64,000 bases of DNA, taken from NCBI RefSeq assembly GCF_017116825.1, contig NZ_JAFIRD010000001.1:1-64000 (forward strand), written 5' to 3'. The DNA is from Mycoplasma enhydrae (GTDB lineage: Bacteria > Bacillota_I > Bacilli_A > Mycoplasmatales > Metamycoplasmataceae). The first letter of the stretch is position 1. The number at the start of each line of letters is the position of its first letter. Below, one piece after another: positions 33,842-64,000 of the stretch. Made by a program: the position numbers and the translations under genes. The notes under the pieces were generated by a model. The model worked only from the letters and a program-made list of their open reading frames with translations. It did no database searches and was not told where the DNA came from.

Positions 33842-36800
33842 TTATATGTTAACTGGTACACCTTTTATGTAAATGGTTATTCCGATTTTTTCAGTAAATA
33901 TATTTTCTATATAATGTCAGTTATTAATGTTTTTAAGAGTTTGTTCTAATCTTCTTTCAATTTCAGCACTATATTGCTTTTTGCCATTTTCATCAGCCTT
34001 GTTATATGTTTCTTTAATTTGGGCAATTCTTGGTTTTAGTTCATCATCGATATATTTAGAAAAGTCAGCATCTCCAAATGGATTATTAAATGATTCTAGA
34101 TATTTTTCATATAATTCATTTAAAATATTTTGTTCATGGTAATTATAACCAAAAGCTGAAATAATTCGAGCTGTATTTCTTAGTTGTCATCATTTTAAAA
34201 TATTTTTCAAACTTGCTATTTTTAAAGTTTTTTCAGTAGTAAATTCTTCACCAAAATTGTAATTATTTTGAGTTTTACCACTTATAGTTTTAAATTTAAA
34301 ATCTTTGAAAACTAAATTTATATCATCATTTGTTGTCACAATTGAAAATTCAGCAAATTTTATTCTAGCTTCTAGAATATTTACTATTTTATCATTTGAA
34401 TGTTGTGATGGATAGAATCATTTTATTGGTCAAGCTATGTGATTATCATTAGGGAATCATTTATTTTTTAATGTTGGTATGCTTTTATCAAAATATGCCT
34501 TTAAAGTAATAATATCAACTTTTTTAGCAGTTACTACATGCTGAGTAAATTCATTCATTAAATTAGTTATGTGACCTGGATTAAAAAATATTTTATGTGA
34601 TCTAACTTGGAATAATCCTGTCATTTTTTTTGCGTTAAATTCAATTTTATATTTACCTTCAGCAAATAATGTTGCTACAATTTCTCCCTCACTATCATTA
34701 GGTGATATGTCTATAGTTTGAATTGTGTAACCCGCTGGAACATTTTTTAATGTCAGTTCATTTTTAGCAATTTTTGAAGCATATTTTTTTTCTTTGTTTT
34801 CAACTTCAACCTCAATAGAAGAAAGTGAATTAATTAAATCATGCATTTCTGTCAATTGGTCTTGTAATGATTCAATGTCATTATTCATTTGTTCTATATC
34901 TGAAACGTCATAACCCTCTTTTTGGGCTTCTTGTTGCAATTTTGCTGTTTTAATTACTAAATTGTTCAGTTCGGTAAGATGTGCGAAAATTTTACTTGAA
35001 AGATAATTTGAATCAACTTTGTTTTCTTTGGCATTTTTTATAGTTTCTTTAACTTCATTTAATTTATCCTCAATTTCTTTTTTGCCTTTTGCAATTCTTT
35101 CTTTCTTCTCAGCAATTTTTTTGGCATTATTTTCTATTAATTCTTTTAGTGCCTTAACGTTTGCATCTTCATCGATAAGTTTATTAATTTCAGTATTAGT
35201 GTCTTTATTTGTTTTTAGATTATTAACTAACTCATCTCATGCGTCTTTTAATTTTGTTAAATCTGCATTTTTTTTCTCAATTTGAGCAATAGTATCGGTA
35301 TCTTGCGCTTCTTTGCCTACCATGCCATCTTTTATTTTGTTACTTTCAGAAGTGATTTTAGATTTAATTTCAGCAATTTTGTTTTTTAAAGCTTCTGTTA
35401 ATAGTTTTAGTTTTTCTTCTACTTGTTCAGTAATTGTTTCAACTGATTTTTTACCTTCACTATAATCTGAAACAGTTAAAGTACCAATAAGTGTAAGTAC
35501 ATTAGCCGAGGTTTTATCAAATTTTTTCAATTCTGCAATAGCTGTTTCTAGTTCTTGAATTTTTTTGTTAACCAAAACAACATCAGAATCACTGATAGCC
35601 TTGTTTGCAGGTGTTGAAAATTCACTTACTTTTTTATCTAATTCAGTTTTTAGATCTTCATTAGCTTTTTGTAATTCAGTATATTTTGTAGTTGTATTTG
35701 CAATTGCTTGATCTAGTTCAGTCAATTTTGCTTGAATTTGCGGTGCATTATTTTTTGGTTCTGCTTTAAGATCGCCAGATAATTTATTTGCAGATGTAAT
35801 TACAGTGTTTAATAAATCTAATTTTGTTTTAGAAGTATCATATTTACCTTTAGGTGTTGTTGCTTCTGCTAGCGCATCTTTAAGTTCTTGAATTTTTTGA
35901 TTAATTTGACTTATTATTTGATCTGCATATTTTTTATCTTCAATTTCTTTGATTTTTTTATCAATTGCTTTTTGTTTTTCGTCAGCTGTTTTATTTTTCT
36001 TTTTTAATTCCTCAATTAAATCAACATGTTTTTTATCTCTAGCTTCTTGTTCAACTTTTTTACCTTCATCAAGAGCTTTCTTAAGTTCTTCTTTAGCTTC
36101 TTTTAGTGTATTAGTATCTTCTGTTTTTAAAGCATCATCAGCTTTATCAATGGCTTTTTTAAGTTTTTCTTCAGCTGCTTTGATTTTATCTTTAAGTTCT
36201 TTAAGTTTTTCTTCAGCTGTTTTTGATTTATCTAAAGTTTCTTGAGCTTCTTTGATTTTTTTATCTAAAGCATCATTTTCATCTTTAAGAGATTTATCAT
36301 CTTTATTTTTATTATGTAAATCTTTAGCTTTATCAATTTCTTTTTTAAGGTCATCTTGAGATTTTTTGATTTTTGCATTATCTCCTGATTTAAGAGATTC
36401 CTCTACAGCTTTTTTCTTGTCATTTAATTTTTTAATTTGATCTTCAATTTCTTTTTTCTTTTGTTTATTTTGCTCTTCTTTTTTAGTTTCTAAATCTTTA
36501 ATTGATTTCTTTTGTTGTTTTTTAGCATCTTCTAAAGCTTTTTTAAACGCATTATATTCTACAAGGTAATCTTCTTTTAATACATCATCTTTTACTTTTG
36601 CATCTAATTTATCAGCTTTGGTGATAACTTCATTAAGAGCATTAAGTGCTTCTTCTAATTTTTGTACAGTGATTTGAGCTCCAGCATCACTTGTTTTAAT
36701 TAATAAATCATCTCTGGTTTCTTTTAATTCTTTTTTAATTGCTTCAACTTTAAGTTTATCAGCAGCTAATTTTTCTTTAGCTGTCTTTAGAGTTTCTTTA

Positions 36801-38041
36801 GCTTTTAGAATTTCTGAACTTAGAGTATTTTTTAAAATATTTAACTTATTATTTGTTAATTCTAATTCTAAAGCATCAGCAGCAGTAATACTATTTTGTA
36901 AGTTATTAATTGCTTGTTCTTGTTTAGTTAGTGATTGATCTTTCTTTGTTTCGGTTGATTTTAGTTCTAAATCTTCAATTATTTCTTTATTTTTCTTTGT
37001 AAGTCTTTCAATTGCTTGTTTTCTAAGTTCAAGTTTATCATGATGATCAGTTAATTTATCTAAAGCAGCATCAATTGTTGCCTTAACAGCAGGAAGTGAT
37101 AGTTCCTGTGCTCTTTTTGAGTTTTCTTTTCCAAATTTATTTAAAACTACATATTCTTTTAATGCTTCTTCGATTTTTTCAATAGTTTCTAAATCGGTAG
37201 TTCTAGCAATAAATTCATCAACTTTTTGTTTAAAGTTTGTAGAAAATTCAGTTAGTTTTTCTTTTTCTTTAGCTTCATCTTTAAGAACATTTAATTTTTC
37301 TTTAAGTGAATTAATAGCTGCATTAGCTCTTTTAATAGCTTCATTTACTAGTTTTGCAGTAGCTTCATCACTTAAAAGTTTTAATTTAGATTCTAATGTA
37401 GTGCCTTTAACAACTAATTGTTCAAGAGCATTAATATAATTTTCAATTTCTACTTTAGTAATAGCATTTTTAGATTCTTCAATCTTTTTATCTATTTCTT
37501 TAATTAATGCTTCAGCTTCTTTTTTAAGGTCAGATTTTTGTTTTTCTTTTTCTTCATGTTTTGTTTTAGCTTGTTTTAGAGCTGCTTTGGCTTTTTCTAA
37601 TGCTGCATTTAAAACTTTCTTATCATTTCCTAATTGTTCAACTTTGGCATTATTGTTTTTAATGTTTGCAATGTTTTTGTCGATTACTAAAACGGTTTTA
37701 TCTCCAACTTTAATTCATTTTTCTAAACTTGCAATTTCGTCTTTTAATTCTTTAAGAGTTAAATTTGGTTCAACTACTTTTGCTGAACCTGCGTTTAATG
37801 TTTTAATTAGTTTTTCAATAAATGCTCTCAGTTTCATGTAATCCAAGTCTTTGTTAGCATCTAATTTATCTAAATCTTCTATTTCTTTATCTGTAATCTT
37901 ATCGGGGTTAGGATCTTTTCAGTCCTTAACAGCTTTGTTATTTAAGTAAATTATAATTCCAGCTGTAGCAGCTGAAACTATTGCTGCAGTGGCAATTACA
38001 CCAATAACAATGGCAGCTGTTTTCTTTTTTGAATTTTTCAT
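33842..38041 (-). CDS. Large membrane-anchored coiled-coil surface protein (1399 aa)
   Basis: N-terminal anchor, residues about 9-33 (AAIVIGVIATAAIVSAATAGIIIYL), preceded by KNSKKK and with no lipobox Cys. About 1000 residues of Lys/Glu/Leu-rich heptad sequence follow, then a more globular, Trp-containing C-terminal region of about 300 residues (from about KNVPAGYTIQTID to KGVPVNI). I scanned every codon from 37713 to 33842: the frame is open, with TGA as Trp. No family recognised; it resembles adhesin or Lmp-like surface proteins in design only. Expression is probably governed by the TA-tract promoter at 38075-38106. Ribosome site GGAG lies 6 bases before the ATG. Confidence 0.88.
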
Positions 38042-38074
38042 AAATTTCTCCATATCTGTAATTTATAAATGTAT

Positions 38075-55796: not shown

Positions 55797-56912
55797 ATGA
55801 AAATAAAATCTAAACTAAAAACATTAATGATGGTTCCAAGTCTTGCGCTTTTACCTATTGTATCTTTAATATCAGCTAGATGCGACAATACAGATACTAA
55901 AAAGGATGATTATTTAGCAATAAAAACATTAATATTTAAAAAATTAAATGAGCTAAGTCCAAGCAATAAAAAGAAATTAATTGAAGAAATTAATGCTCTA
56001 GCAGCCAAAGAAGAAGAAATTGATTACATTGAATTATCGAAGCAAGCTCAAATTATTCTAGAAAAACTAGATAAATTATCAGTAAAGGGAATTAGATATG
56101 ATGCTTCAAATCAATTTTATGCTGAATTAGATGGCTTAAGCGGTCAACAACTTAGAAATAAATTATTTGAATTGCAACTTAAACATAGAAATAAAACTGG
56201 AAACTATTCTGCATTACACCGGACTTACGAGGATGCTTTCGTTGATAAATACTATGAAAATGATGGTACTGTCTTGGATATATACACAGAAATACCCAAT
56301 GGTAAAGATAAATTTGTTTTCAGATTTAATGAATATCAAGATATAGGCAACAAAGAAGGAACAGGAATGAATAGAGAACACATCATTCCTCAATCTTGAT
56401 TTAAAAAGTCTAGTCCAATGAGAGAAGATGCACACCATGTTTGACCTACTGATAAATACGTAAATGCACGTCATGGTAATTCACCATATGGAACAGTAAT
56501 TCAATCAATTCAATATCAATCAAGTAATGGTACAAAAATAGGAACTAGCCAAGAAGATAATGACACAGTTACAGAAGTAATAGATGAATTTAAAGGTGAT
56601 GTTGCTAGAGCATTACTATATTTTGTTTTAACTTATCATGATAGAAATATAATGGCTAATGAACCTTCTCGAAGAGTTTTTATTCAAAAAAATAATATTA
56701 ATTGAATTAAGGACAATTATTTAAAAACATACTTAAAATGAAATGAAAATGACTATATCTCTCAATTTGATATTGACAGAAACAATGGTATATTTAAACA
56801 TCAAGGAAACCGAAATCCTTTTAGTGACTATCCTGAATTAATAAAAGTATATTTCTTAAACGATGATGAATATGTTTTTAAAAACAAAGGTGTTGCGATA
56901 GGAATAAATTAA
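55797..56912 (+). CDS. Surface lipoprotein nuclease, endonuclease I (EndA/NucM) family
   Basis: 371 aa. Signal peptide with lipobox SLISARC; Arg or Lys just before the lipid Cys is acceptable in mycoplasmas. After a helical spacer (residues about 35-95) comes the His-Me finger nuclease: GMNREHIIPQSWF (about 190-202) with the catalytic His, then DAHHVWPTDKYVNARHGNSPYG (about 211-232) with the metal-binding Asn/His. TGA codons are Trp. A surface DNase would supply nucleotides, which mycoplasmas cannot make de novo, and could degrade host DNA nets (inference). Starts after its own leader AAAAAGGGA. Confidence 0.92.
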
Positions 56913-61573: not shown

Positions 61574-64000
61574 ATGAATAAAAAACAAAAAGTTATCTTT
61601 GGATTGGGACTTATATCAGCTGCACCAATAACAATTGTGCCTTTGGCTAGTAAATGTTCTAATAATAATGAACCAGTAAAGCTATCAACAGATGAATCAT
61701 TAGAATTTATAAGAAACAATAAAAATAACAAGAATTTTGTTTTACTTGATGTTAGAACTGAAGGTGAAATAAAGGAAAATTACATTGATGGAATGATCAA
61801 TGTGAATTTAAATGATCCTAATTTTGAACAAAAAATTAATGCATTCGATAAAAACAAAATCTATTTAGTTTATTGTCGTACACAAAATCGTTCACAAGCT
61901 GCTGCTAAGATTATGCAAAAGCTTGGTTTTAAAAACATTTATTGAATGGATGGCGGAATAACTAAATGACTAAGAGAAAATAAGCCTCATGTTGATGTTA
62001 AATCTTCTCAAAAACTGTTAGAAATTAAATCAAATAAAATTAGTTTTAAGCCAAACGAAGACATTTCATTTAGTTTGGAAACCAAAAACATTGAAGAAAG
62101 TAGTATTAATTATAAATTTACTTTGTTAGACTTCAAAACTAAAAATCAAATTAGCACTACTACTAAAATATTATCTAAACCATTTAGCTCAAGCATTAAA
62201 GAATTATTTGGAAGTTCAGTTGTTCTTGAAACTAAAAAAACATACCAACTAAAAGTGGAATGTATAGATATTAGCGATGTTAATGAAGCACTTTTTACAT
62301 TCGATATAATAAGTGCTTTATCAGAAGATAAAAATGATTATGATTCATATAAAACAAATGGTGCTTATGAGCACATTGCTAAAAATCCTTCATTTGAAGT
62401 TAACGAAGAATTCATTAAAAATTTCTTCAACCATAATATGTATCAATATAAAACAATGTCATACACAAAGCAAATTAAACAAATTAATGATATTGTTGAC
62501 ACTACCAAAAAAACAATTTTTATTTTTGGCTCACCAACTTGTTTAACATGTTTGGATTACTTAGCAGATTTAAGTAAGTTGGATTTAAATAAATTCAATT
62601 ATGTTAAGGTTATGACTTCTGTAGATAATGATAGGCTTGATGAATACATCGAATTATCTAAAAAAGCTTTTAAAGAAAAAAACATTTTATCTGAATTAGA
62701 TGATTCATTATTAGATAATCAAGATTTTATTTGAAAAAATGTTATGCATTTTAGCACTACTCCTAAAATTCTTTTATTAGATGAAAAAGGTACAGTTGTT
62801 AATGCTATTGATGGTTTGGAAGGCAATTTTAATGAAGAATTTATTAAAGTTGTTAAAAAGACTTTTGACATAACAATAACAACCAAACAATCTAAACCTA
62901 ATATAGAAGATGGATTAATTAAAGAAGCTAAAGAAGCTTTAAGTGCTTATATTAAAGAAATTGAAGCTAAAAAAGATACCTTGAGAGCTGATCAAAAAGC
63001 AGATTTAGAAAAAGCTCTAGAAAAAGCTAAAACAGTAGAAAACAAAGCTAATGCTACCAAGGAAGAATTAATATCAGCTAAGAATGAACTAAAATCTTCT
63101 TATGAAACAATTTTAGCTAAACCTAAACCAGAAGAACAAAATCCTAATGGACCAAAATTCAACAATGAATACCGTACATGGGAACAAAGAAAAAGATCTG
63201 AACAAAATAATCCAGAGTTTAGTGATGTTAGACAAGATTTAATTGACAATCTTTATGCTAAAAATGTATCAGAACTAAAAATTAAAAAAGCTGATGATAC
63301 CGAACATAAATTTAGTGATATTATTGCTAAAAATGGTAAGGCAACCATTGTAATTTGAGGAGATATTGGATGTAAATATTGTTTACAAGCATTATCTTAT
63401 TTCAAAGATAAACATTTTAATGATTTTAATTTTGTTGATTTGTTAGATGATTATAGAGACAAATCAAAATGAGAAAATACTATTGATATGTATAGTAACA
63501 AAAGCGCAATAGACAAACATATTTTTAGACCTACAGATGATTGAAATCAAGTTACTAGTTTTAGTACTTTTAGACCACAAGTATTTATTTTAGATAAAGA
63601 ACAAAATATAACTTATACACTAGGTTCCACTTATAGAAGAAGTATTGAACTAGCTAGACTTGTAGGTAGCACAATTTCAACACTTGATGTTAATGAAACC
63701 GATGAACAAACCAACGATACAAAAACTAAAGATTTTTATAATGGAAAATATGATGAAATTAAAAAAATCTATCCTAATGATAAAAATAATATAACCGACC
63801 AAAAACATGATTTATGAGAAAGTAAACCTAAAAAACCTTACACACGTAAATCTAAAATAGGTGACAAAGAAGCTGAAATACAAGAATTAAAAGAAATCTA
63901 TCATAAATTTGTTACTGGTCTTGAAACAGAAGATTTAAATTTATATGAACATAATTTTAATGCTAGATATTTAGCTGAGGCTGTGTTCAAATGAGCTCAA
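61574..64000 (+). CDS. Surface lipoprotein with rhodanese and two thioredoxin-like domains (partial)
   Basis: 809 residues to the window end, still open. Signal peptide and lipobox PLASKC (Cys28). Residues about 38-125: rhodanese domain, with LLDVRTEGEI and active loop VYCRTQNRS (Cys101). Residues about 310-430: thioredoxin-like fold, with IFIFGSPTCLTCLDYL (CxxC at 323/326) and a cis-Pro strand STTPKILLLDEKG. Then about 80 residues of helical linker and a charged segment. Residues about 590-695: second thioredoxin-like fold, IVIWGDIGCKYCLQ (CxxC at 600/603) and RPQVFILDKEQ. Start chosen by AGGGAGAG 7 bases upstream of ATG. TGA codons are Trp. Extracellular thiol or sulfur chemistry is inferred. 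Confidence 0.9.

Follow-up and report, generated by a model that had tools for sequence, protein, structure and literature searches.

The window, meaning the whole 64,000-nucleotide stretch that we analysed, belongs to a Metamycoplasma draft genome of 700,529 bases (G000; its genus, labelled g1, also includes M. hyosynoviae, G035) and ends inside a large lipoprotein gene. This open reading frame starts at the ATG at 61574 on the plus strand, extends beyond the window as far as contig position 65575 and encodes 1333 amino acids under code 4. From N- to C-terminus the protein consists of a lipoprotein signal, a rhodanese domain, a beta-sandwich linker, a first thioredoxin (Trx) fold, a FIVAR-like spacer, a second Trx fold and a transglutaminase-like domain, located as follows:

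61574..61657, plus strand: lipoprotein signal peptide, residues 1-28, with lipid-anchor Cys28 invariant in 6/6 orthologues
61679..61993, plus strand: rhodanese domain, about residues 36-140, with loop C101-RTQN-R106 at 61874-61891; PF00581 E=5.5e-18, GlpE VIA Z 11.8, C101 and R106 invariant in 6/6
61994..62314, plus strand: predicted beta-sandwich linker, residues 141-247, with a strand-only pattern in the structure model
62435..62872, plus strand: Trx fold 1, about residues 288-433, with CLTC (323-326) at 62540-62551 and cis-Pro397 at 62762-62764; PF13098 over cut-off, SdbA and Etrx1 structural matches, CxxC and TTPK invariant in 6/6
62885..63145, plus strand: three-helix FIVAR-like spacer, residues 438-524, with 88% DNA identity to another lipoprotein gene and missing from orthologues
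63239..63676, plus strand: Trx fold 2, about residues 556-701, with CKYC (600-603) at 63371-63382 and cis-Pro668 at 63575-63577; SdbA VIA Z 12.1, CxxC invariant in 6/6, Pfam over cut-off in relatives
63911..64000, plus strand: opening part of the transglutaminase-like module, from residue 780, with C936/H964/D985 beyond the window; triad unchanged in 10/10 relatives, in which PF01841 also passes its cut-off, PDB 4xz7 by profile at E=1.6e-4

Elsewhere in the window we noted, at 55797-56912, a lipoprotein carrying the endonuclease I-like motif GMNREHIIPQSWF, by eye a probable surface nuclease, and a membrane-anchored coiled-coil protein of 1403 aa with many Lys/Glu repeats at 33842-38053.

An earlier note on this DNA had proposed a lipid-anchored start at 61574 with a lipobox Cys, a rhodanese with an intact Cys loop and two CxxC Trx folds, each with a cis-Pro; all of this was borne out, and the residue ranges suggested for the rhodanese and Trx domains were right. 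Pfam placed PF00581 at residues 47-134 with 65.7 bits against a cut-off of 22.2, and the rhodanese model aligned with GlpE over 99 residues at an rmsd of 2.6. The active loop spans six residues and runs from Cys to Arg, the rhodanese rule being a six-residue loop from Cys to Arg, Thr or Ser (PMC8533005). Loop position 4 is Gln, Glu or Asp in 6/6 orthologues and thus departs from the Gly of the E. coli loop consensus, Cys-Xaa-Xaa-Gly (PMC10215317). Given that this Gly is the consensus of a subgroup, its absence does not exclude the protein from the rhodanese superfamily; activity may nevertheless be altered, and the unusual residue calls for caution on the likely substrate. A second rhodanese remnant, broken by in-frame stop codons, was seen in another genome (G105:C1:101698-101984, L031).

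Trx fold 1 matched PF13098 (Thioredoxin_2) at residues 310-422 with 29.8 bits, the cut-off being 27, and its cis-Pro397 sits within TTPK, preceded by Thr. The Pfam signal of Trx fold 2 is weak in the window protein alone and passes the cut-offs in relatives (PF13905 at E=3.1e-13, also PF00462 and PF13098); a fold-1 profile detects it at E=1.5e-8, so that the two folds look like a duplication. Structural comparison matched the fold 1 model to SdbA (VIA Z 12.4, 125 aligned), ResA, CcmG and pneumococcal Etrx1 and the fold 2 model to SdbA over 134 aligned residues, and the predicted models group both folds with SdbA/ResA/DsbE. These AlphaFold models, built from three-row alignments, have a mean pLDDT of about 64 and deserve moderate confidence; their secondary structure and structural matches are still clear, and the cis geometry of both Pro residues is inferred from position. 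The TlpA/ResA-like arrangement of a Trx fold with CxxC at its first helix and a later cis-Pro occurs twice in the protein.

We found a rhodanese-Trx-Trx lipoprotein in 6 of 135 Metamycoplasmataceae genomes: four from the genus of the window (G000, G039, G028 and G035, the last being M. hyosynoviae ATCC 25591) and two from genus g11 (G105 and G096, the latter M. opalescens). Outside the family, a class-wide search of 395 genomes yielded only weak matches, with E values of about 1e-4 to 1e-3, and these were to unrelated proteins resembling thioredoxin or glutaredoxin. Orthologues are 32-52% identical to the window protein, and only 84 of the 574 ungapped columns in the six-carrier alignment (15%) are invariant; the lipid-anchor Cys, on which the predicted export bears, the rhodanese Cys and Arg, both CxxC pairs and TTPK are invariant in all six, and the Pro of Trx fold 2 is also kept. 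The protein contains eight Cys (C28, C101, C230, C323/C326, C600/C603 and C936), every one of which is the lipid anchor or an active-site position save C230, a residue that is not conserved and lies in the fastest-evolving part, the linker (20-38% identity to orthologues). The earlier note had named degenerate domains and unconserved Cys as evidence that would count against it; the five catalytic Cys of the N-terminal half are instead invariant in six species. Collectively, these data show that the conserved core is rhodanese-Trx-Trx and that a single gene encodes a lipid-anchored, predicted exported protein with four catalytic sites that appear intact in the sequence.

The history of this gene appears to differ from that of the genomes that carry it. 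Core identity is 59% between G039 and G105, which belong to different genera, and 52% between G000 and G039, whereas GyrB of G000 is 91% identical to that of G039 and 62% to that of G105; this contradiction points to transfer between genera and to a probably accessory, mobile gene. In G000 and G039 its neighbours are acetate kinase on one side and an ABC exporter pair on the other; the remaining carriers have it at other genomic places, and in G025, G029, G030, G032, G035 and G041 acetate kinase directly abuts the exporter pair with nothing between. We rejected a functional link to the adjacent pair, which occurs in 24/24 genomes of the genus and abuts acetate kinase without the lipoprotein in six of those inspected.

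The helical spacer reported in the earlier note is present but is not part of the ancestral machine, given that relatives do without it in the alignment of six carriers and that the segment 62885-63130 is 88% identical over 246 nt to G000:C1:84571-84816, in another lipoprotein gene 20 kb away (L045 7312-9102). On the same grounds we rejected the FIVAR-like spacer as a part of the mechanism. It represents a recent local insertion, by exchange of modules between surface lipoprotein genes.

Extracellular thioredoxins of bacteria are usually explained by CcdA or DsbD bringing electrons from the cytoplasm, and the earlier note had suggested looking for a membrane partner of this kind. None was found in 135/135 genomes by PF02683 or PF13386, profiles that each recovered 10/14 positive controls and that an unrelated membrane electron carrier would escape; VKOR (PF07884) was likewise not found in G000. 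As far as these profiles recognise it, the route by which extracellular thioredoxins receive electrons in the textbook account is therefore missing. An exported MsrAB was rejected as a partner, since the only MsrAB found in G000 (C15:26868-27824) has no signal or anchor; the genome also has one thioredoxin without an export signal and, judged by a CVVC motif and the N-terminus only, a thioredoxin-reductase-like protein at C3:5912. After removal of one evident antisense frame from the 42 lipoproteins called, about 41 remained, of which 26 have no Cys beyond the anchor, in line with the rarity of surface Cys that had been claimed; two such Cys occur in 5 of the about 40 others, and the rhodanese-Trx-Trx protein is the sole bearer of CxxC. 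Against this background, its set of active-site Cys is more than chance would provide.

We propose, at a probability of roughly 0.4, that the core acts at the surface as a persulfide/dithiol relay driven by external thiols, from the host or the medium, in which a persulfide on the rhodanese Cys would be resolved by the CxxC pairs. Cys101 would take sulfane sulfur from an external donor such as thiosulfate, polysulfide or a host persulfide and so become Cys-SSH. A CxxC nearby would attack this persulfide and turn into a disulfide, while sulfide would be released or the sulfur handed on. External thiols (cysteine, glutathione) rather than a CcdA-type membrane conduit would recycle the disulfide, and through the second Trx fold the relay would reach substrate proteins or the pool of low-molecular-weight thiols. 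The relay is suggested by catalytic Cys that stay invariant in six species despite the low overall identity, by the loop-end Arg, which RDL2 and DUF442 (loop CRTGTR) need for sulfur uptake from thiosulfate (PMC8533005), and by two Trx folds that resemble exported SdbA, ResA and Etrx1 in a family with no DsbD/CcdA by either profile. The literature adds precedents: exported PspE uses thiosulfate to make sulfane sulfur, and the reduction of sulfane sulfur to H2S is a step that thioredoxin may carry out (PMC10215317); a title in the reference list of PMC2593051 concerns the interaction of GlpE with thioredoxin.

A rhodanese-thioredoxin fusion also recurs in the family, which again favours the relay. 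This 205-aa protein of genus g8 (L021:1474-2091, L017:557-1174) likewise has a rhodanese followed by a CxxC (CGTC) Trx fold but differs in having no evident signal peptide or anchor, one Trx fold, the loop CGSGGR and no transglutaminase-like part, and it is probably an independent pairing of the two domains. TsoB, a rhodanese/DsbD fusion-like selenoprotein (NF045694), similarly joins a rhodanese to thiol-disulfide machinery; our protein matches its rhodanese part alone (E=1e-7, 30.5 bits against a cut-off of 805) and has neither the DsbD membrane part nor a selenocysteine reading. We infer the donor, acceptor and electron direction of the relay throughout, as sequence does not reveal them. Independent action of the domains is conceivable and counts against a relay, and the relay could run in the oxidative-folding direction. 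Among the functions offered in the earlier note, sulfane-sulfur and external thiol chemistry is the best reading, albeit a conjectural one, while folding of many surface proteins is unlikely because few of them have two Cys.

The best placed of the alternatives, which we nonetheless judge unlikely, is a surface reductase resembling the pneumococcal Etrx1/Etrx2-CcdA-MsrAB2 system, in which the Trx folds would keep oxidised surface or host proteins reduced, the rhodanese would repair over-oxidised or persulfidated Cys, and the electron source would be external thiols or a carrier that escaped recognition. Etrx1 and Etrx2 are surface thioredoxin lipoproteins with TlpA/ResA-like folds (PMC3914529), both folds of our protein match SdbA/ResA/Etrx1, and the Etrx1 structure 4hqs matches fold 1 at VIA Z 10.1. 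Each Etrx, however, has one Trx fold and no rhodanese and depends on CcdA1/2 and surface MsrAB2, neither of which has a counterpart here, and the other lipoproteins offer few Cys to protect.

A less probable possibility is an oxidative-folding device, in which the rhodanese would oxidise the Trx folds and these would put disulfides into exported proteins. Trx fold 1 has Thr before its cis-Pro, as does DsbC. PspE, which like other exported single-domain rhodaneses is extracytoplasmic and has a six-residue Cys loop, works with the Trx-fold protein DsbC and, in a passage of PMC5403849 citing Chng 2012, is said to replace DsbA/DsbB in part in E. coli. PspE is a lone domain, whereas here the rhodanese is lipid-anchored, fused to two CxxC folds and carries Q/E/D at the usual loop Gly; with so few lipoproteins holding two Cys beyond the anchor and 26 holding none, substrates would be scarce.

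The earlier note had expected more sequence beyond the window, and the remainder of the gene indeed adds the transglutaminase-like module. Transglut_core (PF01841), at residues 892-954, is below cut-off in the window protein itself and over it in relatives, the Cys-His-Asp triad is invariant in all ten aligned relatives, and a profile of ten C-terminal modules matches PDB 4xz7 with Cys, His and Asp aligned. Such a domain is present in 35/135 family genomes and in three of the six carriers: G000 and G039 have it in the same frame, whereas in G096 a frameshift splits it off. The rhodanese-Trx-Trx genes of G105, G035 and G028 have no such part. In the Mycoplasmopsis opalescens gene (L038:7595-11448), full-length and adjoined by an MsrB gene, the frameshift falls just before the transglutaminase-like core and reflects assembly error or decay. 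Mycoplasma transglutaminase-like lipoproteins share this C-terminal module and its invariant triad and have no rhodanese or CxxC folds; that of G103 (L035:8512-11427) keeps the second Trx-like region with both Cys lost, perhaps now only as a structural element. The module would be an optional extra enzyme using the same lipid anchor. The redox part might instead serve the module, keeping the exposed Cys936 reduced or persulfide-free, as the shared polypeptide in G000 and G039, and its frameshifted counterpart in M. opalescens, would allow; we consider this highly improbable, as half of the rhodanese-Trx-Trx genes do not encode the module and CxxC is missing from most transglutaminase-like lipoproteins, G103 included. 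Least probable of all is a variable surface antigen or adhesin whose domains are kept for binding rather than catalysis, for although divergence is fast, the spacer has been exchanged between lipoprotein genes and distribution is patchy, the active-site residues never vary in an alignment where 15% of the columns are invariant.

Each domain of the protein is known from elsewhere. A single surface lipoprotein that combines them, in a lineage where no CcdA was recognised, seems not to have been described in the open-licence literature searched, where we found no paper on a mycoplasma surface rhodanese; a comparative genomics paper on M. hyosynoviae makes no mention of rhodanese or thioredoxin. 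Extending the relay to a self-contained extracellular sulfur-redox machine, with one mobile lipoprotein gene, host thiols, no membrane conduit and occasional coupling in cis to a transglutaminase-like enzyme, yields a reading that we hold to be doubtful. Six mycoplasmas of two genera have kept a rhodanese and two intact, predicted-extracellular CxxC folds without a recognised conduit, such that an outside source of electrons, or of oxidising power, would be needed, and the protein offers a clean test case for surface redox chemistry fuelled by the host in cells whose surface has otherwise almost no Cys. The gene further suggests that mycoplasmas pass a catalytic multi-domain lipoprotein between genera and remodel it by swapping spacer and C-terminal modules. 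If this extended reading is true, a single mobile gene would give a genome-reduced bacterium surface persulfide-to-disulfide chemistry run on host thiols.
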